From Phycisphaerae bacterium (GTDB lineage: Bacteria; Planctomycetota; Phycisphaerae; Sedimentisphaerales; SG8-4): DNA of 11,610 nt. A program made the translations under genes and the position numbers. Below the pieces are notes generated by a model. The model had not been told where the DNA came from. It did not search any database and saw only the letters and a program-made list of their open reading frames with translations. Positions 1 through 11,610 of this stretch are shown here, in pieces. Where the stretch lies: NCBI GenBank assembly GCA_030613765.1, contig JAUWLI010000059.1, positions 1-11,610 on the forward strand, given 5' to 3'. Within the stretch, counting starts at the first letter, position 1; every line of letters starts with the position of its first letter.

Positions 1-42
1 AGCTTCTGGCGAAGCCGGAACAAAGCCAATTTCCGATTATCC

Positions 43-70
43 TTGTATCTTTGAATTGGCTGTGTATAAT
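43..70 (+). promoter_or_regulatory. Possible sigma70-type promoter of the phosphofructokinase gene
   Basis: A TTGTAT hexamer at 43-48 is followed after 16 bp by a perfect TATAAT at 65-70, which would place the transcript start near 77 and leave a leader of about 45 nt. A GGAG ribosome-binding site at 107-110 precedes the start codon. The rest of the first 120 bp has no recognisable gene. The -10 match is strong and the -35 moderate; this is a consensus match by eye only. Confidence 0.4.
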
Positions 71-120
71 CTCGTTTTCCGTAATTGTAACCTGACAAAT
101 ATTTATGGAGATTTTATGAA

Positions 121-1332
121 ATGGCAGATGCGCCAAGAGCAAATGCAGTTGTAGCACAATCAGGCGGACCAACCGCCGTGATAAATGCGTCCTTAGTGGG
201 CGTTATCGAAGAGGCAAACAAACATCCGGAAATCGAGAACCTCTTCGGCTCGCTTCACGCTGTAGTCGGAATGGCAAACGACCAGTTCATTGATTTGAAA
301 AAAGTCTCGGCTGATACACTGGAAATCGTGGCCGCTTCACCATGTTCTGCCCTTGGCTCCAGCCGGGATAAACCGGATGAAGAATACTGTTCGAGGATTC
401 TGGAAGTCTTCAGGAAGCGAAATATCCGATACTTCTTCTATATCGGAGGCAACGACTCGGCTAATACAGCCCATATTCTAAATAGTATGGCCGATGACAT
501 AAACTTTGATATTCGGGCATTTCATATTCCCAAGACGGTGGATAACGACTTGCTGGTTACCGACCATTGTCCGGGCTTTGGGACCGCCGCGAAATTCGAG
601 GCCTGTGCGCTGATGGGTGATGATTTAGATAACCGTACACTGCCGGGTGTAAAAATCGATGTGATTATGGGCAGGCATGCGGGTTTTATGACCGCGGCCA
701 CTGCACTGGGCAAACAAAGGGATGATGACGGGCCGCATCTGGTATATGTTCCGGAAAGGCCCGTTTCAATGGATAAATTCCTAAGCGATGTGGATGGTGT
801 TTTGAAAAAGCTGGGCCGGTGCGTGATTACGGCCAGCGAGGGGATCTGTGACTCTGACGGTATTACGTGGGCTAAAAAACTGGCTGAAGAGGCTGAAACG
901 GATTCACACGGTAATATACAACTGTCCGGCACGGGTGCGCTGGCTGATTTTCTGGCAGGGCAGGTAAAGAGCAAACTTAACGCAAAGCGGGTGCGAGCCG
1001 ATACATTTGGGTATCTGCAAAGGTGCTTTGCTGGATTGCAATCGGAAGTTGATGTTCGTGAGGCGAGGTGGTGCGGCCGTCATGCCGTTCAATTTGCTAT
1101 GGAAGAGGACAATGGTTCGGTAGCGATTAAACGGCTTGGCAACGGGGCGGATTATAAAGTTGAACTGTTCCGAACCGAGCTTAAGAACGTGGCTGAGAAG
1201 ACAAAATCCATGCCTGATGAATTTATTAACGCCGAGGGCAATGGTGTAACCGATGCCTTTATCGAATATGCAATGCCCCTGACGGGAGGACTGCCCAAAA
1301 CGGAATTTCTTGGAAACTATCCGGGAATATGA
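121..1332 (+). CDS. PPi-type 6-phosphofructokinase (PfkA family)
   Basis: This is a cytoplasmic glycolytic enzyme that phosphorylates fructose 6-phosphate to fructose 1,6-bisphosphate, probably with pyrophosphate as donor, which makes the step reversible. The 403 residues match the usual length of PPi-type bacterial enzymes. An N-terminal phosphate loop (QSGGPTAVINAS, 13-24) is followed by GGNDS at 109-113, where an Asp sits at the position that is Gly in ATP-dependent enzymes. PKTVDND at 137-143 carries the Lys (138) typical of PPi users, where ATP enzymes have PGTIDND. MGRHAG at 183-188 is the substrate-binding motif. Donor specificity is inferred from these residues, not shown. The ATG at 121 is preceded by GGAG at 107-110. 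Another ATG at 116 is out of frame. The gene is followed after 98 bp by a methyltransferase on the same strand, with no evident functional link. Confidence 0.92.
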   Translation: MADAPRANAVVAQSGGPTAVINASLVGVIEEANKHPEIENLFGSLHAVVGMANDQFIDLKKVSADTLEIVAASPCSALGSSRDKPDEEYCSRILEVFRKRNIRYFFYIGGNDSANTAHILNSMADDINFDIRAFHIPKTVDNDLLVTDHCPGFGTAAKFEACALMGDDLDNRTLPGVKIDVIMGRHAGFMTAATALGKQRDDDGPHLVYVPERPVSMDKFLSDVDGVLKKLGRCVITASEGICDSDGITWAKKLAEEAETDSHGNIQLSGTGALADFLAGQVKSKLNAKRVRADTFGYLQRCFAGLQSEVDVREARWCGRHAVQFAMEEDNGSVAIKRLGNGADYKVELFRTELKNVAEKTKSMPDEFINAEGNGVTDAFIEYAMPLTGGLPKTEFLGNYPGI

Positions 1333-1430
1333 TATTCTGGTTCAGTTCGAGAATACAGGGCATTTCTTTGCTGAATCCTGAAAGGGGTAATGCAAATGGT
1401 GACCTTACAAGGTTAGAAAGAGTTTAAGTT

Positions 1431-2279
1431 GTGAAGAAGGCAAAAAAAGTTATATCGCGTAACCTGGGATTAGAGGTCGGTTCCATCTGCGGCAGATATT
1501 TTCTTAAAATGAAGCATCTTCATTATGGGTATTGGACTGACAAGATCGATGTAGATATTGCGAATTTACACCTGGCTCAGGATGAGTATGTCAAATTTAT
1601 CGTCTCGCATATTCCTGATGGTGTTAAGACTATTTTGGATGTTGGTTGTGGCACAGGTGAAGTGGCGGAGGCGCTACTTAATATGGGATACCAGGTAGAT
1701 TGTGTTTCTCCCTGTCCTTTTCTAAAAGAGCAAGCCGGCAAACTATTGGGGGACAGAAGCCATATCTTTGAGTGTTTTTATGAAGATATGGAAACCAGCA
1801 ATCGATATGACATGGTCTTGTTCTGTGAAAGTTTCCAGTACATGAATGTTGAACAAGCCCTTTCGAAGACCAATGAGTTTTTAAAGAGCGGAGGCCATTT
1901 GTTTATATCTGACGTCTTTGAAAAAGACGTCAAAGGCAAGGGGGTAATGGGTGGCGGGCACAAGTTAAGCAAATTTCATGACCTCATTTCAAAGTTCCCT
2001 TTTAAGCTTGTTGAGAACGCCGATATTACTGAAGAAACTGCACCAACTATGGATTTATTTAGCGATATACTGGAGAACGTGATCCGGCCTGTTGTAGATG
2101 TGGGTATTCGCTTTTTTGAGAACAGGCACCCAATCGCTTTAAAATTTCTAAAATGGAAATACAGGAAAAAAATAGAGAAGACTCATAAAAAGTATTTAGA
2201 AGGGGGCAGAGCGGGAGAAGACTTCAAGAAATACAAGTCTTATCAGCTTTTTGTTTATAAAAAAGATGTTCAGGAATAA
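1431..2279 (+). CDS. Class I SAM-dependent methyltransferase, substrate unknown
   Basis: This 282-residue cytoplasmic protein has a Rossmann-type methyltransferase core. The SAM-binding motif I, ILDVGCGTG, lies at 68-76. An acidic stretch follows strand 2, and a late strand, GGHLFISDVF (154-163), matches the usual post-motif region. A HYGYW element at 31-35 precedes the core. Similar elements occur in small-molecule methyltransferases such as tocopherol and glycine/sarcosine types, but this does not fix the substrate. The C-terminal third is rich in Lys and aromatic residues and ends with a SYQLFVYKK strand, the usual closing edge of the sheet. There is no signal peptide. The start is GTG with a purine-rich AGAAAGAG at 1415-1422. 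The next in-frame ATG (codon 27) has no ribosome-binding site and would shorten the region before HYGYW. It converges on the DUF6807 gene with 38 bp between the stops, where I see no clear terminator. Confidence 0.85.
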   Translation: MKKAKKVISRNLGLEVGSICGRYFLKMKHLHYGYWTDKIDVDIANLHLAQDEYVKFIVSHIPDGVKTILDVGCGTGEVAEALLNMGYQVDCVSPCPFLKEQAGKLLGDRSHIFECFYEDMETSNRYDMVLFCESFQYMNVEQALSKTNEFLKSGGHLFISDVFEKDVKGKGVMGGGHKLSKFHDLISKFPFKLVENADITEETAPTMDLFSDILENVIRPVVDVGIRFFENRHPIALKFLKWKYRKKIEKTHKKYLEGGRAGEDFKKYKSYQLFVYKKDVQE

Positions 2280-2317
2280 GTGAAGGCTGCTGAGAGAGAC
2301 TAACTGAAATCGATGTT

Positions 2318-3307
2318 TTATTTTTTCTTTGATATTTTTTCCAGCTTCGCTGGCTCAATTTTCGAAAAATGCTTCCACTTTGCTTCGATCGTGTCCTTTG
2401 GTTTAATATCGCTGTGAATATATAGTCCATAACGAAGGTGCAGAGGTTTGCCGGGTTGAATCGTCCTTGGCGCATCAAAGGTTAGAGAAGCTCCCATCCA
2501 GCCATCGTTGCGGACGTGAAAATAGGTGGGAAAATTTGGGTTGTCCGGATGGTCAAAAAGCGTAATGCCTTCCTGTTTTCCACTTGCTATGGGGCCGGAA
2601 TAGTCGACCCATCTGGCTCGCTTCCAGAACACCTCTTTTTCGTTGACCGCTCCTTCTGAGTTTCGAATTGTCCCGCCGCCGTCGTTGACGCCAATGGTTT
2701 TAGCCATTCGGACGCCGATCATTCCAAAAGGTGTTTTTCCCAGCGTAACCGGAGTATCTTCGGCCTTGAATTCCATATCGATAATCATAAGCCATTCGGA
2801 GTCGTCGAGCGGTACGGTTGTTACCCGGCGTGTTTCTGAAAGAAGAACTTGGCTTTTATTCCTCACCCACTGGTTTTCTGCGATTATAGAAGAAGCCCGG
2901 TTGCCATCTTCAAATTTTACAATCCTTTTGTGGCGAATCTTTCCTTTGCCGTCATCGCTCCAAAAATCAGCACCGCCGACATCGTGGTGCGAAATCCAGA
3001 CTGAATTGTGGTGGCTGTGGGATTCGGGATCGTGTGGATGACCCATACGTGTGAGGGAGCGGCTGGAAGGGCCGATTACTGGAAATATAAATGGCCGATG
3101 AAGAGCAGGGCCGAAGTGGTATCGGGCAATCTCTAAACCATATCGCTGAAACGAAGCCTGATGATAGGGCTGTGGTATGACCTGCATGCGCGGAACTGGT
3201 TTCGGAGCTGGCAATGCAGGGCGTGTCGATACGAATGCACCTATCAAAAGTACTGAAAAAACATGAGCCAGACTTTTCTTGTTAGGTTTAGCGTTAAAAA
3301 AAATCAT
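2318..3307 (-). CDS. Secreted DUF6807 ('PmoA-like') family protein
   Basis: This 329-residue exported protein belongs, by motif, to the family once named 'methane oxygenase PmoA' in Pfam and now treated as DUF6807. The old name is misleading and no methane oxidation is implied. The N-terminus has a Lys-rich stretch, a hydrophobic segment (about 13-27) and a Pro/Ala-rich region, which reads as a signal peptide with mature start near 30-35. The family hallmark is the His-rich run GHPHDPESHSHHNSVW (89-104) followed by HHDVGGADFWSD (107-118), a likely metal or ligand site. A second conserved stretch, TYFHVRNDGWMGASL (261-275), lies in the C-terminal half. The family is common in planctomycete and Bacteroidota gene sets for polysaccharide breakdown, but its activity is not established as far as I know. 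The start lies 16 bp after the stop of the 589-aa gene, so the two are probably one transcript. The ribosome-binding site is weak (AAGGG). Confidence 0.85.
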   Translation of the reverse strand: MIFFNAKPNKKSLAHVFSVLLIGAFVSTRPALPAPKPVPRMQVIPQPYHQASFQRYGLEIARYHFGPALHRPFIFPVIGPSSRSLTRMGHPHDPESHSHHNSVWISHHDVGGADFWSDDGKGKIRHKRIVKFEDGNRASSIIAENQWVRNKSQVLLSETRRVTTVPLDDSEWLMIIDMEFKAEDTPVTLGKTPFGMIGVRMAKTIGVNDGGGTIRNSEGAVNEKEVFWKRARWVDYSGPIASGKQEGITLFDHPDNPNFPTYFHVRNDGWMGASLTFDAPRTIQPGKPLHLRYGLYIHSDIKPKDTIEAKWKHFSKIEPAKLEKISKKK

Positions 3308-3323
3308 AGTTCGAACCCTTTTT

Positions 3324-5093
3324 TTAGTCCTCGGGGCTGAAAACTGCGATTTCAGCTAATCCGATATTCTGTGTTTGGGGCTTGACGGAACTGACAACAA
3401 ACTTGAGCCAGGTTACTTTTTTGGGTGGGAAGGTGATTTCTTTGGCAGCAGAGGCGTTATCGGGCAGCTCACCAAAATTTATCGAGCTGTCGTCACTGAA
3501 GATAAGCTTGCCGGTAGTGACCTGGTCGGCGTGTGTGTTGGGCCTGTCAAAAAGCCAGACGCGATTAATAATTTGTGGTTTATCCCAGTTCAATCGCAAT
3601 GTTGCCGATGCCTTTTCGCCGTCGGTAGCCCACTCGGCTGAGATATCTTCCGGGTAGCCGCCCACGATTCCATCAATAGCTGCCTGGGCAGTGTAGCCTT
3701 TGTAGGTTGATGAAGCAGTTACAGTGGCTTTACGAGCGACGTTGACATTGCTCTTAAGTGGGTCTTTCTGCTGCTGTTGGTTCTGCTTCTTTTTGTACTG
3801 TCGGTGCATAGTGGGATTTAATAGTTTGACCTCTTGCAGGACAAGGCCGTAGCGGCTGCCTGGAGGTATGGCCTTGAATCGGATGTTATTCCAGCCCTGA
3901 CTGAAGTTGCCTGAATAGCACAGCCAGAGCGTTAGTCCGTCTTTGCTGATAAATTTAGAGGGGAAATTGAGGAAATACCCCTGTTCGCCGAATTCCTTCA
4001 TATATGTTACGAGCTTCCACGGGCCTGTAATCTTTTCGGATTCGAGGATGTAAGAATTCATCTTCGCGACCGTCGGCCAACCATCGGTTACACACATTAG
4101 GTATTTCTTAAGCGGTGCATTATAGGTAATTGTGACGCAGCCCATATTGTTGTTCCATTCCAACAGCGGCCTGATGTTGTTAAAGTCATAGGACCAGACA
4201 GGCTTACTTTTCTTATCGTATCCGGCAAAGTACTCATATTTTGATTCATCGTTGATGTTTTTGATGCTCGGTGTAACGCGGGTCAGATAAATCTGGTCGC
4301 CGGATATCCAACTCAGGTTGGCGTATCGCGGCTTAGGATCGTTTTCTTCAGCTCCGTAACCGACCAGGTAAGCTTTGCCGTCTGGTGAATGTTCCATATT
4401 TTTTCCGAAGTCGATAAATTTTGGTGAGCCGATTTTTAGCGGGCCCATAAATTCGGCAGGTTCAGGAAAAAGTGGCTTAGCCGGTGTGTGAGGTGTGTCG
4501 GTCCAGGTTTTGCCATAGTCGGTGGAGATTCGGAATCCCGGAATCGGGCCCAATACCGGCCAGTTCCATCTCATGCCATCGTGCATGACGCGTCCAGCGG
4601 GGCCTAAACAGTAGGTGCCGTAATACCAGACACCGTTGTAAACAAGACTTCCACAGGGATAGCGTCCCTGGTATGGATGCGGGTCGCCCTTAGTTGTGCC
4701 GAGAGCCTTGATTTTGAGATTGAGCGGGTCGTTGCCAATCATTACGGCCTGGCCGGTGGTTGCATTGCGGCCACCGGAACTGGATCCCATTCCATCGGTT
4801 TGTCCGTCTGTCCATGGAGAATACAGATTGTCATCCGAGGCCCAGGATGGATACCAAGTGTCCGCTACTCGATAGTCACTATGCACGCCCGTAAATAATA
4901 TCCCGACTAAATCTTCGGATTGTTCGAAGGGAATATCCTCGGGAGGCTCCGATGGCCAAAGCAATGGTTCGGACTTTGGCGGATATTTCACGATTCTTTC
5001 TTCGGCAAAGATAGTGTTGGATAAAAGAATTGTGAGTAGGGCAACAGGCAGTAATTTACCTGCTTTTGTTGCTGTGGTTGCCAGTGCTTTCAT
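3324..5093 (-). CDS. Secreted Asp-box propeller protein with C-terminal discoidin-like domain
   Basis: This is a 589-residue exported protein. The signal peptide is residues 1-30 (Lys-containing head, core LLPVALLTILLSNTIFA, cleavage near AEE). Residues about 60-430 look like a beta-propeller of the sialidase/glycoside-hydrolase type, with a textbook Asp box, STDYGKTW, at 190-197 and Trp/Asp-rich loops such as ADTWYPSWASDDN (77-89). A charged, Gln-rich linker (434-445) leads to a jelly-roll domain at about 449-585 that resembles F5/8 type C (CBM32-like) modules, with NVARKATVTASSTY at its start. The likely role is binding or cleavage of extracellular glycans; catalytic residues cannot be assigned. 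The frame is open to 5141, but the ATG at 5093 is preferred because GGAGGAG lies 7 nt upstream and a signal peptide then starts at residue 1. Its 5' end and leader are part of the direct repeat shared with the region after ftsY. Confidence 0.82.
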   Translation of the reverse strand: MKALATTATKAGKLLPVALLTILLSNTIFAEERIVKYPPKSEPLLWPSEPPEDIPFEQSEDLVGILFTGVHSDYRVADTWYPSWASDDNLYSPWTDGQTDGMGSSSGGRNATTGQAVMIGNDPLNLKIKALGTTKGDPHPYQGRYPCGSLVYNGVWYYGTYCLGPAGRVMHDGMRWNWPVLGPIPGFRISTDYGKTWTDTPHTPAKPLFPEPAEFMGPLKIGSPKFIDFGKNMEHSPDGKAYLVGYGAEENDPKPRYANLSWISGDQIYLTRVTPSIKNINDESKYEYFAGYDKKSKPVWSYDFNNIRPLLEWNNNMGCVTITYNAPLKKYLMCVTDGWPTVAKMNSYILESEKITGPWKLVTYMKEFGEQGYFLNFPSKFISKDGLTLWLCYSGNFSQGWNNIRFKAIPPGSRYGLVLQEVKLLNPTMHRQYKKKQNQQQQKDPLKSNVNVARKATVTASSTYKGYTAQAAIDGIVGGYPEDISAEWATDGEKASATLRLNWDKPQIINRVWLFDRPNTHADQVTTGKLIFSDDSSINFGELPDNASAAKEITFPPKKVTWLKFVVSSVKPQTQNIGLAEIAVFSPED

Positions 5094-5178
5094 TTTTTTG
5101 CTCCTCCGAGATGGTTCGTTATATAAACAATGCTTCCACAAATGTTTCGGGATTAAATTCGGCGATATCTTCCGGCTT
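5061..5178. repeat. Direct repeat, copy A (ftsY tail + leader + gene start)
   Basis: This segment aligns without gaps to 7660-7777 at a constant offset of 2599 bp, with 97 of 118 positions identical (my count by eye). Read on the minus strand it holds 19 codons of an ftsY 3' end, a stop, a 25-bp spacer with the ribosome-binding site GGAGGAG, and the first 11 codons of the Asp-box gene. Identity falls to background beyond 5178, only 11 bp from the stop of the 14-repeat gene. The two copies frame that gene precisely. Confidence 0.9.
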
Positions 5179-5181
5179 CAG
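5119..5181 (-). pseudogene. Stranded 3' end of an ftsY gene
   Basis: Reading the minus strand from 5178 gives KPEDIAEFNPETFVEALFI and a stop at 5121-5119. The intact FtsY of this window ends KPEDIAEFDPETFVEALFT, so 17 of 19 residues match. KPED belongs to the G5/C-terminal region of SRP GTPases and no other part of the gene is present here, so this is a fragment and not a gene. Eight of ten nucleotide differences from the intact copy are at third codon positions, the pattern of two functional genes diverging. It lies between the 14-repeat gene and the Asp-box gene and has no start codon or ribosome-binding site of its own. Confidence 0.85.
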
Positions 5182-5188
5182 TTTGCTG

Positions 5189-7504
5189 TTACTGGCCGAT
5201 AAGCCAGTTGCCGGCCAGCGCAGCAAAATCCTTAAAGTCCACTGTAAAATCATAATTCAGGTCGGCTTCGTAACACCAGCCGTTATACAGGCAGTCCTTG
5301 TCCAGCCATCGTTCGGTAAACAAATCCAAATCAGGCCAATCCACAACACAATCATGATTCAAATCACCAATATGAACTTCAGGCACGCCCCACCTCGCCC
5401 AGAAAGCGGAAACGTAATCGCCTGCTATGGTGAAATTGCCTCCTGCGATCAATTCTCCTTTGTAGGCCTTCAGGGCTTTAAGCTCATCATTCACCCCGCT
5501 TCCCAACGGCTGCCAGATACTGCCATCCCATGCAGCAATACAATTAGCGCTTACACCACCGGCTGTTGTAAATAGACCTCCTGCAATAAGCTTGCCACTA
5601 TAGATTGCAAGGTCAAGAGCTAAAGGATAATCACCACCCAGCCCGATTCCGAGCGGCTGCCATGTGCTGCCATTCCATCGTGCAATCCCGTTGACTTCTA
5701 CACCGCCGGCTTTGCTAAAATAACCTCCCGCAATAAGTTCGCCGTTATAAACGGTCAATGCACGAGGGGAAGGCGGTAACAAAGTAAAAGAGTCGTTCAC
5801 CCCGCCACCCAGTGCCTGCCAGTTGTTACCGTCCCACGCAGCGATATAATTAACATCTACACTGCCGGCTGTGGTAAACAAACCTCCTGCAATAAGCTGA
5901 TCGTTATAGACCGTCAGGCTATAAACATGAGGATAATAACCACCCAGCCCGACTCCGAGCGGCTGCCAGGTACTGCCGTTCCAGGCAGCAATACCATTAG
6001 CGGAAACACCGTCGGCTGTGGTAAAGGTGCCCCCTGCAATAAGCTGGCCGTTATAGACTGTCATGGCCCAGACCCAATTATTCATCCCGCTTCCAAGCGC
6101 CTGCCAGCTGTTGCCATCCCAAGCAGCGATATAATTAACATCTGCACCGCCAGCTGTAGTAAAAGCTCCTCCTGCTATAAGCTGGTCGTTATAGACCGTC
6201 AGGCTATAAACATGAGGATAATCAACACCCATCCCGCTTCCCAACGGCTGCCAACCGCTGCCATCCCAAGCTGCAATATGATTAGTATTTAAACCGCTTA
6301 CTGAATTAAACATTCCGCCTGCAATAAGTTCGTCGTCGTAGACCGTCAGGGCTAAGACATAACCGTTCATCCCGCTTCCAAGCGGATGCCAACTATCGCC
6401 GTCCAGGGCGGCAATATGATTAGTGATTATACCACCTGCTGTGGTAAATAGACCTCCTGCAATAAGCTGGCCGTCATAATCCGTCAGTGCAAAGACCCGT
6501 TCGTTTAATCCGTTTCCAACCGGCTGCCAACTGCTCCCGTTCCATGCAGCTATAGAATTAGTATTTACACCGCCGGCTGTGTTAAAATAACCTCCTGCAA
6601 TAAGTTGGCCGTTATTGACCGCCAGGGCATGGATATTGCCGTTCATACCGCTTCCAAGTGGTTGCCAGGAGCTGCCGTTCCAGCGGGCAATTCTACTGGC
6701 GGAAACAACCCCGGCTGTAGTAAAATTTCCTCCTGCAATAAGCTCGCCATTATAGACAGTCAGGGCTCCGACAATGTTGTTCATGCCGCTACCAATCGGC
6801 TTCCAACTATTGCCGTCCCAGGCGGCAATATAATTAGCAGTAACCCCACCGGCTGTGGTAAATTTGCCTCCTGCAATAAGCTGATTGTTATATACGGTCA
6901 GAGTATAAACATAATCGCTCATCCCACTTCCCAAAGGCTGCCAGCTATTGCCGTCCCACGCAGCAATATAATTAGCAGTAACACCGCCGGCTGTGGTAAA
7001 CCAACCTCCTGCAATAAGCTGGCCGTTATAGACAGTCAAGGCGGCGACACGGTAATTCATCCCGCTACCAAGCGGCTGCCAGCTGCTGCCGTCCCAGGCC
7101 GCAACGTAATTGGCATCCACACCGCCGGCTGTGGTAAAATAGCCCCCTGCAATAAGCTGGCCGTTATAAACCGTCAGGGCACGAACAATATTATCATTAT
7201 CCATTCCGCCTCCGAGCGGCTGCCAACTATTGCCGTCCCATGCGGCAATAGCATTGGCATCCCCACCACCGGCTTTGTTAAAATAGCCTCCTGCAACAAG
7301 CCGCTCCGGCTGCGGTCCTGCTCCATCAGGGTCCCAGGGGGTTACTGCGAAAACCCAGCCATTCAGACCTGGCAGATTTTGACCCGGTTTCCAGTCGAAT
7401 TCACATTGGCCAAAGACTATGCTTGTTGTCGACCCTATTACCAAAATTGTGATAAGAACAACCAGGAACAGACGAAACTTTATTCGTGTTGAGAAAACGG
7501 TCAT
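5189..7504 (-). CDS. Secreted 14-repeat propeller-like protein with dockerin-like C-terminus
   Basis: This is a 771-residue exported protein. Residues 1-32 form a signal peptide (RIKFRLFLVVLITILVIG core, cleavage near VFG-Q). About 14 tandem repeats of 44-52 residues follow, each of the form LTVYNGQLIAGGxFTTAGGVxANxIAAWDGxSWQPLGSGM. Repeats of this kind are seen in predicted beta-propeller surface proteins. The C-terminal 65 residues carry two Ca-binding-type loops, DLNHDCVVDWPDLD (from 714) and DLNYDFTVDFKDFA (from 748), each followed by a WL motif. This is the type I dockerin-like module widespread in Phycisphaerae. It may anchor the protein to a cohesin-like partner, and no cohesin is visible here. 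The ATG at 7504 is chosen over the one at 7534 because GGAGGAG lies just upstream. The gene sits exactly between the two ftsY-tail repeats, which suggests it was inserted there. Its ligand is unknown. Confidence 0.85.
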   Translation of the reverse strand: MTVFSTRIKFRLFLVVLITILVIGSTTSIVFGQCEFDWKPGQNLPGLNGWVFAVTPWDPDGAGPQPERLVAGGYFNKAGGGDANAIAAWDGNSWQPLGGGMDNDNIVRALTVYNGQLIAGGYFTTAGGVDANYVAAWDGSSWQPLGSGMNYRVAALTVYNGQLIAGGWFTTAGGVTANYIAAWDGNSWQPLGSGMSDYVYTLTVYNNQLIAGGKFTTAGGVTANYIAAWDGNSWKPIGSGMNNIVGALTVYNGELIAGGNFTTAGVVSASRIARWNGSSWQPLGSGMNGNIHALAVNNGQLIAGGYFNTAGGVNTNSIAAWNGSSWQPVGNGLNERVFALTDYDGQLIAGGLFTTAGGIITNHIAALDGDSWHPLGSGMNGYVLALTVYDDELIAGGMFNSVSGLNTNHIAAWDGSGWQPLGSGMGVDYPHVYSLTVYNDQLIAGGAFTTAGGADVNYIAAWDGNSWQALGSGMNNWVWAMTVYNGQLIAGGTFTTADGVSANGIAAWNGSTWQPLGVGLGGYYPHVYSLTVYNDQLIAGGLFTTAGSVDVNYIAAWDGNNWQALGGGVNDSFTLLPPSPRALTVYNGELIAGGYFSKAGGVEVNGIARWNGSTWQPLGIGLGGDYPLALDLAIYSGKLIAGGLFTTAGGVSANCIAAWDGSIWQPLGSGVNDELKALKAYKGELIAGGNFTIAGDYVSAFWARWGVPEVHIGDLNHDCVVDWPDLDLFTERWLDKDCLYNGWCYEADLNYDFTVDFKDFAALAGNWLIGQ
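5430..7310. repeat. Coding tandem repeat array, about 14 units of 132-158 bp
   Basis: A GCAATAAGCT(GG) element recurs near 5585, 5731, 5889, 6037, 6174, 6321, 6460, 6597, 6737, 6880, 7012 and 7149, with degenerate end copies near 5447 and 7293. Each is preceded by a GCCGGCTGTGGTAAA-type block and a GGCTGCCA block. The unit length varies in multiples of three and the array stays in frame as the repeats of the secreted protein. Nucleotide similarity between units is high, consistent with expansion by unequal recombination. Confidence 0.9.
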
Positions 7505-7584
7505 AAAATCTCCTCCTTTACCCCACAAAAACATCCTACCTGTGTACAGGCCTTATGTAATACGAGATTTCCCACATATAGCTT

Positions 7585-7692
7585 TTAATGAGACCTTTTC
7601 TGTTCTCCGATAATTCCATAATATACAAAAACCATCTTAAAATTGCAAGCATTTTCTGCAGCTTTTGTAGCTATGTTTGCTAATGTTTTCAT
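7585..7692 (-). pseudogene. 35-codon remnant of a signal-peptide gene downstream of ftsY
   Basis: An ATG at 7692, 25 bp after the ftsY stop and behind a GGAAGAG ribosome-binding site, opens 35 codons starting MKTLANIATKAAENACN. The first 11 residues and the leader match the start of the Asp-box protein (MKALATTATKA). After that the match ends, no hydrophobic core follows and the frame stops at 7585. I read it as the broken 5' end of a gene once like the Asp-box gene, cut by the event that placed the 14-repeat gene here. A real short peptide cannot be excluded but nothing supports one. Confidence 0.6.
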
Positions 7693-7777
7693 TATTTTGC
7701 TCTTCCGAGAAGATTCGTTACGTAAACAATGCTTCGACAAACGTTTCTGGGTCGAATTCTGCGATATCTTCCGGTTT
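7660..7777. repeat. Direct repeat, copy B (within ftsY 3' end and beyond)
   Basis: This is the partner of 5061-5178, at 97 of 118 identical positions. Here the ftsY part is continuous with the intact gene, while the downstream gene start is truncated. In copy A the opposite holds: the downstream gene is intact and ftsY is only a tail. That reciprocal arrangement is what a crossover or single-site insertion at this point would leave. Confidence 0.9.
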
Positions 7778-8641
7778 TTCGCCGAGGCCAACGAATTTTA
7801 CCGGTATGTCGAGCTGGTCTTTAATAGCAATGACGATTCCGCCGCGTGCTGTACCGTCGAGTTTTGCCAGGAATATTCCTGTGACGTTAATTGCTTCTGT
7901 GAACATCTGTGCCTGAATAATTGCATTCTGGCCCGTAGTGGCATCAAGGACAAGCAATACTTCATTTGGCGTGTCGGGGATTTTTCGGGCCACTACGTCG
8001 CGAATTTTGGTCAATTGCTGCATCAAGTCTTTTTTTGTGTGCAATCGGCCGGCTGTGTCGAGAATCAGGATATCTGTGCCTCTTGCAACGGCGGCTTCAC
8101 AGGCATCAAAAGCGACCGCTGCCGGGTCGCTGCCGGTTTTGTGCTTTACTATTTGGACACCAATGCGTTCAGCCCAGATTGTTAACTGTTCTACAGCGGC
8201 GGCACGGAACGTGTCGCAGGCGGCCAGCAAAACTGTTTTGTTATTCTGGGTAAATATATGGGCGAGTTTGGCGATACTGGTGGTTTTTCCGGTGCCGTTG
8301 ACGCCGGCAACCAGGATGACGGTAGGAGGGTGCTGGGCAGTATGTAATTGTCTATCGCGGTTCGGCCAATAGTTTTTGATGTGCTCCTTGAGAAACGGTA
8401 TTATTTCGTCGGTTGTTGCGATTTGCCTGCTGCGGTAAGCATCTCGCAGGCTGGATACAAGCTTGTCCGTCGTTTCTACACCAATATCGTCGCTTATCAG
8501 CGTTTCTTCCAACTCATCGAGCAGGGTTTCGTCGATATTTCTGCCCAGAGTGAGTACCGAAGAGAGCGAACTGGTAATTTTGTCACGCGTTTTGCCCAAC
8601 CGGTCTTTGAAATATCCAGCTGTCTTAGTGAAAATTCCCAT
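7718..8641 (-). CDS. ftsY: Signal recognition particle receptor FtsY
   Basis: FtsY is the GTPase receptor that docks the SRP-ribosome complex at the inner membrane for co-translational insertion. The 307 residues contain only an NG domain with a short N-terminal helix (MGIFTKTAGYFKDRL), lacking the long acidic A region of E. coli FtsY. The four-helix N domain spans about 20-100. GTPase motifs are complete: G1 GVNGTGKTT (113-121), DTFRAAA (143-149), G3 DTAGR (195-199), G4 AKLDG (259-263, where TKLDG is usual) and GLGEKPED (285-292). The Gly-rich loop reads DGTARGG in place of the commoner DGTAKGG. The ATG at 8641 follows AAGGAAG with suitable spacing. It diverges from dnaA and leads a run of minus-strand genes. 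Its last 19 codons are duplicated at 5119-5178. Confidence 0.97.
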   Translation of the reverse strand: MGIFTKTAGYFKDRLGKTRDKITSSLSSVLTLGRNIDETLLDELEETLISDDIGVETTDKLVSSLRDAYRSRQIATTDEIIPFLKEHIKNYWPNRDRQLHTAQHPPTVILVAGVNGTGKTTSIAKLAHIFTQNNKTVLLAACDTFRAAAVEQLTIWAERIGVQIVKHKTGSDPAAVAFDACEAAVARGTDILILDTAGRLHTKKDLMQQLTKIRDVVARKIPDTPNEVLLVLDATTGQNAIIQAQMFTEAINVTGIFLAKLDGTARGGIVIAIKDQLDIPVKFVGLGEKPEDIAEFDPETFVEALFT

Positions 8642-8660
8642 GATTTCTTCCTTAATTGTA

Positions 8661-8682
8661 GCGTATAGGGTATAGCGTATAG
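8661..8682. repeat. Short TATAG-rich repeat upstream of ftsY
   Basis: GCGTATAG occurs at 8661-8668 and 8675-8682 with GGTATA between, giving three TATAG elements in 22 bp. It lies 20 bp upstream of the ftsY start codon, inside its expected leader or promoter. On the minus strand the TATAC elements could serve as -10 sequences, although no well-spaced -35 stands out. Its function is unknown. Confidence 0.6.
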
Positions 8683-8830
8683 AAAATAGTGAAAATCGTA
8701 AAGCGAAAACTATTGATCTCGCAATTCCCCGGATTTACTCTTTGAATTTTTAGGTTTTCGTTTTTATATGGGGACAGTTTATTGGCCTGAAGAAATTTGC
8801 ATTTTTTTGGTTTTTTCTGTAAGTTTGTTT

Positions 8831-8859
8831 TTGACAAAGCAAGCGATTCAAATTAGATT
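8831..8859 (+). promoter_or_regulatory. Likely sigma70-type promoter of dnaA
   Basis: A perfect TTGACA at 8831-8836 is followed after exactly 17 bp by TAGATT (4 of 6 consensus positions) at 8854-8859. This predicts a transcript start near 8866 and a leader of about 130 nt. It is the best promoter match in the divergent ftsY-dnaA gap (8642-8998). I see no consensus DnaA boxes in that gap, so autoregulation by DnaA is not supported by eye. Confidence 0.55.
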
Positions 8860-8877
8860 TCGATTAGCGGATTTGCT

Positions 8878-8897
8878 CAGGCAGGAGTGGTTGCCTG
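8878..8897 (+). other. Small hairpin in the predicted dnaA leader
   Basis: CAGGCA (8878-8883) and TGCCTG (8892-8897) form a perfect 6-bp inverted repeat with an 8-nt loop, about 12 nt downstream of the predicted dnaA transcript start. It has no U-tract and is not a terminator. It could be a 5' stabilising hairpin or chance. Confidence 0.35.
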
Positions 8898-8998
8898 TTC
8901 TCGACCTTGTAAGAGTTTTTAACAGGGAAGTTTTTGATGGTTATTTTTTGTTTTCATAGAGCGCAGATTAGGTAGGCCTTTCGCAAAGGAGGGTGGTC

Positions 8999-10318
8999 TT
9001 GGCAGTTCGGGAAGTTGAAGACATTTTCGTTGATATTGTTGATTGTGTAAAAGTAATTGACCCAGCCAACGTTCGGAGGTGGTTTGAGAAGTTAACGGTT
9101 ACACACCTGAGCGGGGGTTCACTCGAAGTTGGTTGTCCCGATGAGGCAACCGTTCAGTTCTTACGTGACAACTGCAAAAATAGCTTCACCCATGCTGCTC
9201 AACAAATAACAGGCCATCTTGTAACTGTTGATTTCAATATTGTTAGCCGGGATGAGACTGGGCGTCGCTCTCAGCAACCTATGCTCGGGCTTAAATTTCA
9301 TCCTGATTATACGTTTGATAATTTTGTAGTTGGGCCGAGCAACCGCCTTGGTCACGCCAGTTGCGTTGCTGTAAGCCATTCGTTGGGCGATACTTACAAT
9401 CCTCTTTTTCTTTATGGCAGTTCCGGCCTGGGTAAAACCCACCTTTTGCATGCAGTTTGTTGCGAGGTCAGGCAGAAATCTGATCAGGCGGTAATACAGT
9501 TTTTGAGTTGTGAAGATTTCGTCAACAGATTTATCAGAGCCATCGAGACAGGGAATTTGGCCGGCTTTCAAAGCCAGTTTCGTACTGTCGATGTGCTGGT
9601 GATCGACGATGTTCAGTTCTTTCGCGAACGCGAGCAAAGTCAGGAAGAGTTCTTCCACACCTTTAATGCCCTTTATAACAACGGCAAACAAATCATCCTT
9701 AGCGCCGACAGCCCGCCTGGGAAGATATCTTCACTTGAGGAGCGTCTTATCAGCCGGTTTAACTGGGGTTTGGTAACCAGAATCGACCCGCCAAGCTATG
9801 AGACGAGGGTGGCAATTGTGCAGAAGAAAGCACACGTTCGCGGTATTACTATATCCGATGAAATTGCTGAATATATTGCCCGAAAAGCACATGCAAATAT
9901 CAGGGAACTGGAGGGTGCTTTGACAACTCTCTACGCCGTGTCAACGACTACCGGTAAGCCTATTACCCTTGAATTGGCTCAGGAAGCTCTTGAAGGGCAA
10001 ATTGAATCAGCGGCCAGGTATATAAGTATTACTGATATTATCGAAGTTGTTACTGGTCATTTTGATGTTCGTCTTGCGGATTTGCAGAGCAAAAGACGCA
10101 GTCAAAGCATTACTATGCCCCGCCAGATTTGCATGTATTTAGCGAGAAATCTAACGAAACACAGCCTCGAGGAAATTGGAGGGCATTTGGGCGGCCGGGA
10201 CCATACTACCGTAATGCATGCCTGTAACAAGATTAGCCAGGCCGAGCAAAGTGACTCCCAAATGCACGCATTGCTGGCCGAACTGAAAAGGCAAATCACA
10301 AAAATCCCAAAAGATTAG
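8999..10318 (+). CDS. dnaA: Chromosomal replication initiator protein DnaA
   Basis: DnaA binds DnaA boxes at oriC as an ATP complex and opens the duplex for DnaB loading. The 439 residues show the standard order: domain I (about 1-75), a very short domain II, AAA+ domain III starting near LKFHPDYTFDNFVVG, and domain IV. Seen motifs are Walker A GSSGLGKT (140-147), Walker B VLVIDD (199-204), box VII SRFNWGL (252-258) with its arginine finger, sensor 2 NIRELEGAL (300-308) and the DNA-binding signature GGRDHTTVMHACNKI (398-412). The frame opens with GTG at 8993, but that codon overlaps the AAAGGAGG ribosome-binding site (8985-8992). TTG at 8999 has proper 6-nt spacing and is the likelier start. 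dnaA diverges from ftsY here, with no dnaN or recF next to it on the right, so this is not the classic dnaA-dnaN origin region. Confidence 0.96.
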   Translation: MAVREVEDIFVDIVDCVKVIDPANVRRWFEKLTVTHLSGGSLEVGCPDEATVQFLRDNCKNSFTHAAQQITGHLVTVDFNIVSRDETGRRSQQPMLGLKFHPDYTFDNFVVGPSNRLGHASCVAVSHSLGDTYNPLFLYGSSGLGKTHLLHAVCCEVRQKSDQAVIQFLSCEDFVNRFIRAIETGNLAGFQSQFRTVDVLVIDDVQFFREREQSQEEFFHTFNALYNNGKQIILSADSPPGKISSLEERLISRFNWGLVTRIDPPSYETRVAIVQKKAHVRGITISDEIAEYIARKAHANIRELEGALTTLYAVSTTTGKPITLELAQEALEGQIESAARYISITDIIEVVTGHFDVRLADLQSKRRSQSITMPRQICMYLARNLTKHSLEEIGGHLGGRDHTTVMHACNKISQAEQSDSQMHALLAELKRQITKIPKD

Positions 10319-10410
10319 ATCCATCTGAGTTGGTCTGTCGAATCCTCAGTTGAATTAAATAACGTCTTTCCTGGAATACTGTGATGGAAAAACATGGTGG
10401 AACGCTTTCA

Positions 10411-10437
10411 ACAGATCGTGTAAATTTTATGATCTGT
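10411..10437. other. Inverted repeat after dnaA
   Basis: ACAGATC (10411-10417) and GATCTGT (10431-10437) form a perfect 7-bp inverted repeat with a 13-nt AT-rich loop, 93 bp past the dnaA stop. No U-tract follows on the plus strand, so it is at best a weak dnaA terminator or a 3'-end stabiliser. It lies just beyond the stronger terminator that faces the other way. The remaining 10319-10410 holds nothing I recognise. Confidence 0.45.
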
Positions 10438-10440
10438 GGC

Positions 10441-10474
10441 AAAAAAAAAAGGCTGTGAAAAATAAACAGCCTTT
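10441..10474 (-). terminator. Intrinsic terminator of the PEP-CTERM gene
   Basis: Read on the minus strand, AAAGGCTGT and ACAGCCTTT (10474-10466 and 10456-10448) form a 9-bp stem with a 9-nt loop, followed at once by a run of ten T (10450-10441) that overlaps the stem foot. It begins about 30 nt after the stop codon at 10505. This is a textbook rho-independent terminator. On the plus strand it lacks a U-tract, so it serves dnaA poorly. Confidence 0.85.
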
Positions 10475-10504
10475 GAACTAATCATCAAAACTATATTCCT
10501 TGGT

Positions 10505-11167
10505 TTAAGACCTGCGTTTTCTCAACAAAGCTAATGCACCTAAGCCAAGCATGAGTATCGTGGCCGGCTCAGGTACGTATGCCCCATAGGCACTTAAGTC
10601 CCCTGGCCCACCATGAATGAACTTTGCGGCGCCGTATGCTAAGATGTGGCTATCGTTTTGAAACGACAGGTCATAGAAATCAGTATCTGAATATGGAGGA
10701 GTACCACCGTCAATTGTTATTTTGAATGTTACGGTTTCCAGTTCATCGATATGTATAGAAGCTATGTCGTTGCTTACGATGCTTATATCGTACAGGCCAA
10801 AACCATCGCATTGAATGTTGTCCATATTAAGAGTCAGTGTCCAATCACTCACGTTACCGACCGATACCGAATTAAGTGTTAGGCTTGATATGGGCGCACT
10901 GGTATTGAAATAGAGTTCACTCATATCAAAGGCAGTGTCGCCGGCGTTTTCAGGGGTCAGGTTTGATACAGCAAGCGTCAGTTCCCAATACCCAACATTG
11001 GCAACAGACAAATTCATGCTTGCGTCCATCCAACTGGCTGGAACACTATTGGGCCCTGAAGGCTGTGAACTGTGGGTACTGAGAGGTATCACCAATCCTT
11101 GAGCTGAAGTTGATAGTAAAGCGACAGACAAAAAGACAATAATTCCGATGAAAACACGAGTTTTCAT
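10505..11167 (-). CDS. PEP-CTERM sorted exported protein of unknown function
   Basis: This is a 220-residue protein with an N-terminal signal peptide (MKTRVFIGIIVFLSVALLSTSAQG) and a C-terminal sorting tag. The tag is YVPEPATILMLGLGALALLRKRRS, shown here in parts: the VPEP motif, a hydrophobic helix and a basic end. By family knowledge such tags are handled by an exosortase (EpsH/XrtA-like) and mark surface or exopolysaccharide-linked proteins. No exosortase is in this window. The middle (about 30-190) is Ser/Asn-rich beta-type sequence with no domain I recognise; it has a gap in similarity to anything I can name. The ATG at 11167 is preferred over one at 11188 because AAGGAGGAG precedes it directly and the signal peptide then starts at residue 1. 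It has its own promoter and terminator and is probably monocistronic. Confidence 0.85.
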   Translation of the reverse strand: MKTRVFIGIIVFLSVALLSTSAQGLVIPLSTHSSQPSGPNSVPASWMDASMNLSVANVGYWELTLAVSNLTPENAGDTAFDMSELYFNTSAPISSLTLNSVSVGNVSDWTLTLNMDNIQCDGFGLYDISIVSNDIASIHIDELETVTFKITIDGGTPPYSDTDFYDLSFQNDSHILAYGAAKFIHGGPGDLSAYGAYVPEPATILMLGLGALALLRKRRS

Positions 11168-11216
11168 AAACTCCTCCTTTGCTTCCATACACCATACTCT
11201 CCATAGTTACAAACGG

Positions 11217-11236
11217 CTTATCTTACGTAAGATAAG
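11217..11236. promoter_or_regulatory. 20-bp perfect palindrome in the PEP-CTERM leader
   Basis: CTTATCTTACGTAAGATAAG is a perfect 20-bp palindrome 50 bp upstream of the PEP-CTERM start codon and about 30 nt downstream of the predicted transcript start. It could be an operator for a dimeric regulator, or fold as an RNA stem. It shares the 8-bp core TTACGTAA with a second palindrome at 11357-11370. Confidence 0.65.
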
Positions 11237-11273
11237 TATTTTACGCGTTTTTTATATACTTAGTCACAATCTC

Positions 11274-11303
11274 ATTTTATGAAGAATAATACATAAAAGT
11301 CAA
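11274..11303 (-). promoter_or_regulatory. Likely promoter of the PEP-CTERM gene
   Basis: On the minus strand TTGACT (11303-11298, 5 of 6 consensus) is followed after 18 bp by TAAAAT (11279-11274, 5 of 6). The transcript would start near 11267, leaving a leader of about 100 nt that contains the 20-bp palindrome. The surrounding 11238-11350 stretch is very AT-rich, so other -10-like hexamers exist. Confidence 0.5.
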
Positions 11304-11356
11304 TAAAAAATTTGAATAATTCTGATAATATTTTTTGATTTCAGCAGCATGCTCAT

Positions 11357-11370
11357 TTTTTACGTAAAAA
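11357..11370. promoter_or_regulatory. 14-bp palindrome upstream of the PEP-CTERM promoter
   Basis: TTTTTACGTAAAAA is a perfect 14-bp palindrome about 55-70 bp upstream of the predicted -35 element. Its TTACGTAA core is the same as in the 20-bp palindrome, and the two centres are 137 bp apart, close to 13 turns of DNA. That spacing would suit a looped repressor, but this is speculation. Confidence 0.45.
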
Positions 11371-11382
11371 GCTTGTTTTCGG

Positions 11383-11610
11383 GTGAAAAAATATCACCGA
11401 TTTCGAGATTGTTGGATTTGGTCTCAAAGCAGGTTTCTAAAGCTAAAGGCGATTTTCCGTCTTTCATTACGGAATCGCCGGGCTGTAAAAATCCAAGGAT
11501 ATGAAAAAAGGTCGATAATTGGTAATTTCAATTCATTTCAAACATCTGAAGGTGCTTTGAGGATTAAAGTAAGTGGCTTGAATAGTTGGATTGCGTAGTA
11601 TTATCAATTA
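11383..11610. other. Right end of the window without a convincing gene
   Basis: A frame opens with GTG at 11383 and closes at 11598 (71 codons), but it has no ribosome-binding site and its Arg/Lys/Trp-rich translation resembles no family I know. The one structure I see is an imperfect inverted repeat, GGCGATTTTCCGT (11448-11460) with ACGGAATCGCC (11469-11479). It is 11 paired bases with a 2-nt bulge and an 8-nt loop. Read on the minus strand it is followed by a weakly T-rich stretch, so it might end a minus-strand gene beyond the window. Confidence 0.4.

Follow-up and report, generated by a model that had tools for sequence, protein, structure and literature searches.

An orphan ftsY tail behind an apparently mosaic ftsY may record one-sided homologous displacement in a Phycisphaerae bacterium

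Introduction

Why does the end of ftsY occur twice in one stretch of planctomycete DNA, once on the gene itself and once farther downstream, without a gene body? The stretch analysed here (the window, 11,610 nt) comprises positions 1-11,610 of the forward strand of contig JAUWLI010000059.1, from assembly GCA_030613765.1 of a Phycisphaerae bacterium (Sedimentisphaerales; SG8-4). The initial annotation had proposed that a repeat-protein gene arrived as a cassette by recombination at ftsY. In the comparisons below, W denotes the sequence of the window, and L and G numbers denote loci and genomes of relatives, which are mostly metagenome-assembled.

Results and Discussion

The repeat and the segment that it encloses

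On the minus strand the window contains, in this order, ftsY, a 2481-bp segment, an orphan ftsY tail, a secreted-protein gene and a DUF6807 gene; the methyltransferase and phosphofructokinase genes beyond them face the opposite way (Table 1). The two copies of the repeat can be aligned without gaps with 97 of 118 positions identical, and its edges are sharp, the flanking 20-nt windows matching at 3-8 positions only. A repeat search reports the same pair (83% over 117 nt), and local alignment of the copies yields a score of 77, compared with at most 19 in 20 shuffles. The repeat described in the initial annotation is thus borne out. The same holds for its statements that ftsY is intact at the upstream copy, that the next gene is intact at the downstream copy and that essentially a single gene lies between them, the unique 2481 bp (5179-7659) consisting essentially of one repeat-protein ORF and the 125 bp upstream of it. 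The longest exact run common to both copies is 14 nt (82% identity overall), which makes an assembly error unlikely as the cause of the two copies.

Table 1. Features of the ftsY-phosphofructokinase region in the window
Feature	Position	Strand	Basis
Phosphofructokinase gene; conserved, bounds the variable interval on its far side	121..1332	+	
Methyltransferase gene; in the variable interval	1431..2279	+	
DUF6807 gene; in the variable interval	2318..3307	-	Pfam, tree
Downstream gene, intact, Asp-box-like; DUF7402 and F5/8C; next to ftsY in relatives	3324..5093	-	
Downstream copy of the 118-bp repeat	5061..5178	-	Alignment
Displaced orphan ftsY tail (KPEDIAEFNPETFVEALFI to stop), without ftsY body, 60 nt	5119..5178	-	
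10 nt between the stop of the inserted gene and the orphan tail; putative non-homologous joint	5179..5188	-	
Inserted 14-repeat propeller-like secreted-protein gene with weak dockerin-like tail; likelier start ATG at 7504, after AAAGGAGGAG	5189..7534	-	
Unique sequence upstream of the inserted gene; the insert has its left edge at 7659	7535..7659	-	Identity stops at 7660
Upstream copy of the 118-bp repeat, spanning the working ftsY tail, a spacer and the orphan gene start	7660..7777	-	97/118 identity
Orphan start (11 codons), second copy of the downstream gene	7660..7692	-	Alignment to 5061-5093
Last 126 nt of ftsY; tract that probably came with incoming DNA	7718..7843	-	MaxChi break, distance switch
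ftsY, intact, 307 aa	7718..8641	-	Pfam SRP54, E 9.4e-76; mosaic signal

The inserted ORF contains 14 L(I/V)AGG anchors and matches the DUF5122 and Rax2 propeller profiles of Pfam. Its earlier description as a 14-repeat dockerin-like gene is correct as regards the repeats, whereas the dockerin part is weak: PF00404 matches the excised 60-residue tail at E 0.017, below the family cut-off. The region upstream of the ORF, aligned with four nearby stretches, scores near or below shuffles. In a protein search with 7995 candidates scored, relatives among the matches listed have 34-59% identity, the best three 50-55%, and no close orthologue is present among these matches. Distant homologues at E 1e-60 occupy at least six places in 5 of the 89 family genomes, with at most 11 candidates scored per genome. 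Among 80 relatives, several of whose contigs end soon after ftsY, none showed the gene in the ftsY-phosphofructokinase interval; a weak 67-residue match in L043 lies beyond phosphofructokinase.

The possibility that the inserted gene is a self-moving cassette was set aside. No fragment of a neighbouring gene framing the homologue was identified at five of the six places (L139-L143), the sixth (G043) being left out, although L142 has flanking dispersed repeats. In self-comparisons of the homologue loci (1200 bp or more), the repeats in L139-L141 fall inside the homologues, and L143 has none. The dispersed repeat of L142, about 65-150 bp long with 84-95% identity between copies, is found at 3283-3484, 6368-6441, 7464-7614 and 8916-9034, on both sides of the homologue (3588-5720).

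Empty sites in relatives

The downstream gene had been labelled an Asp-box gene, a name that goes with the motif S-x-D-x-G-x-T-W; Pfam makes no such call and gives DUF7402 and F5/8C instead. The predicted empty site, with this gene directly behind ftsY, exists: among the 80 loci it was found in six close relatives (L001, L003, L005, L012, L014 and L019), in which the gene begins about 23-98 nt after the ftsY stop (the L001 contig ends 175 codons into it). Of the 89 family genomes searched, 22 carry the gene, and in 13 of them it is located directly behind ftsY (G001, G003, G005, G012, G014, G019, G022, G024, G035, G073, G074, G077 and G081). The two genes are 1-2 kb apart in three genomes (G007, G075 and G079) and lie elsewhere or unlinked in six. 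No second ftsY tail was detected in G075 and G079 (L023) at the threshold of the protein scan. Inspection by eye indicates that L002 (10925-11030) retains about 14 codons from the start of the gene and a dozen from its end, and L004 (5811-6083) 62 and 32 residues, respectively. These internal deletions are apparently separate events, and the gene seems to be lost often.

Two ftsY ends of different lineages

The ftsY tails of the two copies differ at 10 of 57 coding positions, and eight of these ten differences are at third codon positions (P 0.0034). Such a bias resembles that of working ftsY genes, since pairwise comparison of the ftsY tails of eight relatives yields differences of 37:38:228 by codon position, and it points to two ftsY lineages rather than one duplication. 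A second ftsY end is thus present as the initial annotation had it, and this "duplicated" end is better read as a pair of ftsY ends from different lineages. Homology between the copies ends at 5178/5179, the putative joint. The orphan tail differs from the tail of the sister locus L001 at 12 of 60 positions and is no closer to it than to others, which is not what a resident tail would show, so that an exchange of either the orphan tail or that of L001 has to be assumed as well.

The working ftsY itself looks like a mosaic, with an L001-like body and an L002-like stretch of about 120 nt at its end. At the 104 sites separating L001 from L002, W sides with L001 by 70:20 as far as nt 798 and with L002 by 12:2 from nt 813 onwards; a MaxChi test of W, L001 and L002 places a break at nt 798-813 that 0 of 2000 permutations reach. 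Between the first 798 nt and the last 126 nt, W-L001 differences rise from 6.3% to 12.7% and W-L002 differences fall from 12.5% to 4.8%. The L001-L002 differences stay at 12.5% and 11.9%, so that W looks like the gene that switched. The cut point was picked from the data, which the permutation allows for and the Fisher tests (0.015, 0.010 and 1.0) do not. No break was evident in the controls, dnaA (p 0.17) and four further ftsY triplets (p 0.24-0.68); testing L001 as the recombinant gave p 0.094, with the break at 690.

W, L001 and L002 all show less divergence from L014, L019, L012 and L005 in the last stretch of ftsY than in its body, so that the fall in W-L002 differences is in part a general one. 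Compared with L003, divergence at the end falls to 9.2% for W and 7.5% for L002, but barely for L001 (12.9% to 12.5%); this departure from the trend suggests that an odd L001 tail, or an exchange in L001, is possible. In its spacer and gene start, the upstream copy matches the downstream copy at 47 of 58 positions and L002 at 37, indicating that L002 itself was not the donor.

A simple origin requiring no donor would be that the ftsY tail and the gene start were first duplicated locally in tandem and that an insertion or replacement came afterwards. We nevertheless consider it highly improbable, as the third-position bias between the copies differs from the 8:3:9 by codon position of a decayed orphan tail at another locus, L007, and as such a duplication does not account for the mosaic break in ftsY.

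A model of the event

The locus probably, although by no means certainly, records a one-sided homologous displacement behind ftsY. DNA from a relative, on which the end of that relative's ftsY and a leftover of the next gene's start preceded the repeat-protein gene, would have entered the cell and crossed over inside the resident ftsY near nt 798-813, a step that the mosaic supports. At its far end the incoming DNA would have been linked without homology to a point 57 nt short of the old ftsY stop. In this way ftsY would have remained complete, having gained a new tail, while the old one, together with the genes that follow it, moved 2.6 kb downstream; about 51-66 nt of the old ftsY, between the break and the joint (nt 864/865), would have been lost. 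Going by the mosaic signal, the joint formed by homology lies upstream of the repeat, at a distance of about 109-124 nt from the ftsY stop. Insertion behind ftsY, as proposed initially, is supported by the empty sites and the mosaic, and the MaxChi break and the distance switch indicate that the insert also brought a replacement ftsY end.

A single crossover of a circle, which in this case would have carried the repeat-protein gene and a short patch of ftsY tail, classically leaves an insert between direct repeats. Such an origin appears improbable here: the copies share at most 14 identical nt in a row, which is short for RecA pairing, and the break at nt 798-813 lies upstream of the repeat rather than inside it. 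A point in its favour comes from PMC3240628, where a duplication PCR product, ascribed to circle single crossovers, was given by 56 of the 60 clones in which one-sided events were expected.

Displacement of the one-sided kind is suggested by the sequence comparisons as a whole, namely the mosaic ftsY, the tails of two lineages, the empty sites, the layout of L007, the conflicts between trees and the variable slot. It is counted against by the orphan tail, which is not L001-like, by the possibly odd tail of L001 and by the L007 break, which is not significant; the expected donor layout, in which the repeat-protein gene follows ftsY and the gene start and no second tail is present, was also not found in the 80 loci. 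The trees of the downstream gene and of phosphofructokinase, which leave W+L001 and L003+L014, respectively, unrejected, likewise speak against it. Neither the orphan tail nor the downstream gene is close to L001, which implies a further exchange in one of the two genomes.

A second locus with the same layout

L007 contains an intact ftsY followed by a start fragment of a DUF6807 gene, a histidine-kinase fragment, an orphan ftsY tail and the downstream gene. The histidine-kinase fragment is 91% identical (798/877 nt) to the gene behind ftsY in L009, and in both L009 and L010 this cargo belongs to the usual surroundings of ftsY. The working ftsY tail of L007 differs from that of L009 at 4 of 57 positions and from that of L005 at 7, whereas overall L007 is nearer L005 than L009 (ftsY 0.949 vs 0.929, dnaA 0.974 vs 0.935). 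The ftsY tree does not resolve L007, L005 and L009, and MaxChi on the L007 triplet yields no significant break (p 0.27).

A protein-level scan of the loci of the 80 relatives detected a second ftsY tail in L007 only, with E 1.9e-5 by self-comparison. In an alignment scan covering 77 of 81 loci (four have too little downstream sequence), the window lies 58 points above shuffles and L007 14. Fourteen loci at 1-6 points above shuffles were set aside as chance; the match of the highest, L018, lies beyond the ftsY stop.

The orphan tail of L007 starts 6-13 nt from the starting point of that in the window. The sequence near GGTGAAAAGCCGG, about 57-70 nt before the ftsY stop, might be a preferred entry point for repeated joining of incoming DNA in this group, perhaps preferentially cut or paired; we regard this as a long shot. 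If it were true, orphan ftsY tails would mark serial displacements behind an essential gene.

The nearby starts could also suggest site-specific integration at the 3' end of ftsY by an integrase-bearing element that has since been lost. A replacement gene end with a displaced old end is a hallmark of site-specific integration at the 3' ends of genes. However, Pfam reveals no recombinase among the eight ORFs of the window, and no integrase occurs among the families listed for 39 of the 95 slot ORFs of relatives (25/39 Pfam, 25/34 PHROG families; these 39 are at least 180 aa long and without match to window genes). The ends share no identical att core, their longest common run being 14 nt, and the L007 cargo is a regular ftsY neighbour elsewhere. 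Such an element is highly improbable. Of the "single-site or homologous recombination at ftsY" envisaged initially, the homologous part is upheld by the break at nt 798-813, and the single-site cassette finds no support.

The ftsY-phosphofructokinase interval

Judged by its content and by the gene trees, the interval between ftsY and phosphofructokinase is a turnover hotspot. Its length ranges from 17 to 6691 bp, with changing gene sets, in the 32 of 80 loci that have both borders on the contig; some small ORFs in this listing are shadow ORFs. Other genes in the same slot, for which the initial annotation had suggested a search, are thus present. The dnaA and ftsY trees agree on the groups W+L001, W+L001+L002 and L003+L014, the last supported at 100/100 by dnaA and 88/91 by ftsY. 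This last group is rejected by the trees of the downstream gene (p 0.00026) and of DUF6807 (p 0.02), so that slot genes conflict with the conserved flanks. The downstream-gene tree does not recover W+L001, yet does not reject it (p 0.27). The DUF6807 tree joins W with L003 (97/99), with W+L002 not rejected (p 0.061), and the phosphofructokinase tree joins W to L002 (100/100), with L003+L014 not rejected (p 0.105). Length cut-offs for the trees dropped, among others, the partial dnaA of L009 and the partial phosphofructokinase of L012 and L020. Because of these conflicts and the partner switching of DUF6807, slot genes seem to move between lineages, and exchanges of the kind proposed for the window would recur in this interval.

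Along the DUF6807 gene of the window (2318-3307) the ends are L003-like and the middle is L002-like, suggesting further exchange tracts. The DUF6807 labels for L034 (125 aa) and L048 were discarded as artefacts of clustering shadow ORFs. In L038 an HNH endonuclease with an AP2-type domain (12003-12680) is encoded inside the interval. Beyond dnaA, the window encodes a PEP-CTERM secreted protein (10505-11188), for which three relatives gave matches, L002, L014 and (partial) L001, at 59-77% identity, below the values for dnaA and ftsY.

The order of events may have been the reverse, with the repeat-protein gene already behind ftsY and the orphan tail representing the left end of a later segment from an L003-related donor, comprising the downstream gene, DUF6807 and the methyltransferase. 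Such an order would fit the orphan tail, which is no closer to L001 than to others, the grouping of DUF6807 with L003, the methyltransferase, which is present in the interval of L003 and absent from that of L002, and the downstream gene, which differs from that of L001 by 14%, compared with 6% for the body of ftsY. However, it leaves the lineage switch of the working ftsY tail unexplained, and the similarity of DUF6807 alternates between L002 and L003 along its length. We therefore regard the reverse order as a conceivable but rather unlikely history.

Relation to known systems

One-sided displacement behind ftsY would leave in these uncultured planctomycetes a readable scar of gene acquisition, recognisable from the empty sites, the crossover signal mapped in ftsY, the displaced tail and the other cargo at a second locus. 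Orphan tails of core genes could serve to count such events in any clade, with no need for mobile-element genes as markers.

The best reading is that the event is of a known kind, namely homology-facilitated illegitimate recombination (HFIR) with Rhs-like displacement of a gene end. PMC3240628 describes HFIR in S. pneumoniae, A. baylyi, P. stutzeri and E. coli, with joints of 3-10 bp microhomology. As in that description, one end is homologous (here the ftsY break, with the caveat of a possibly odd L001 tail), the other would be joined without homology, and foreign DNA comes to lie beside a conserved anchor. The HFIR recipient generally loses a stretch similar in size to the insert (PMC3240628), whereas the loss from the old ftsY would here amount to no more than about 51-66 nt.

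The T6SS effector-immunity arrays of V. cholerae and Rhs loci are comparable in that a conserved upstream anchor is proposed and old 3' ends are shifted downstream as orphans (PMC5361080). The ftsY locus differs from those systems in having a housekeeping gene as anchor and, as orphan, a tail of 60 nt that lacks a gene body; a retained toxin or immunity function is not suggested. Recombination hotspots between core genes likewise combine a variable interval and high turnover with no recognised mobile element. That model relies on a double homologous exchange, whereas in the ftsY locus one joint looks non-homologous and a readable scar is left.
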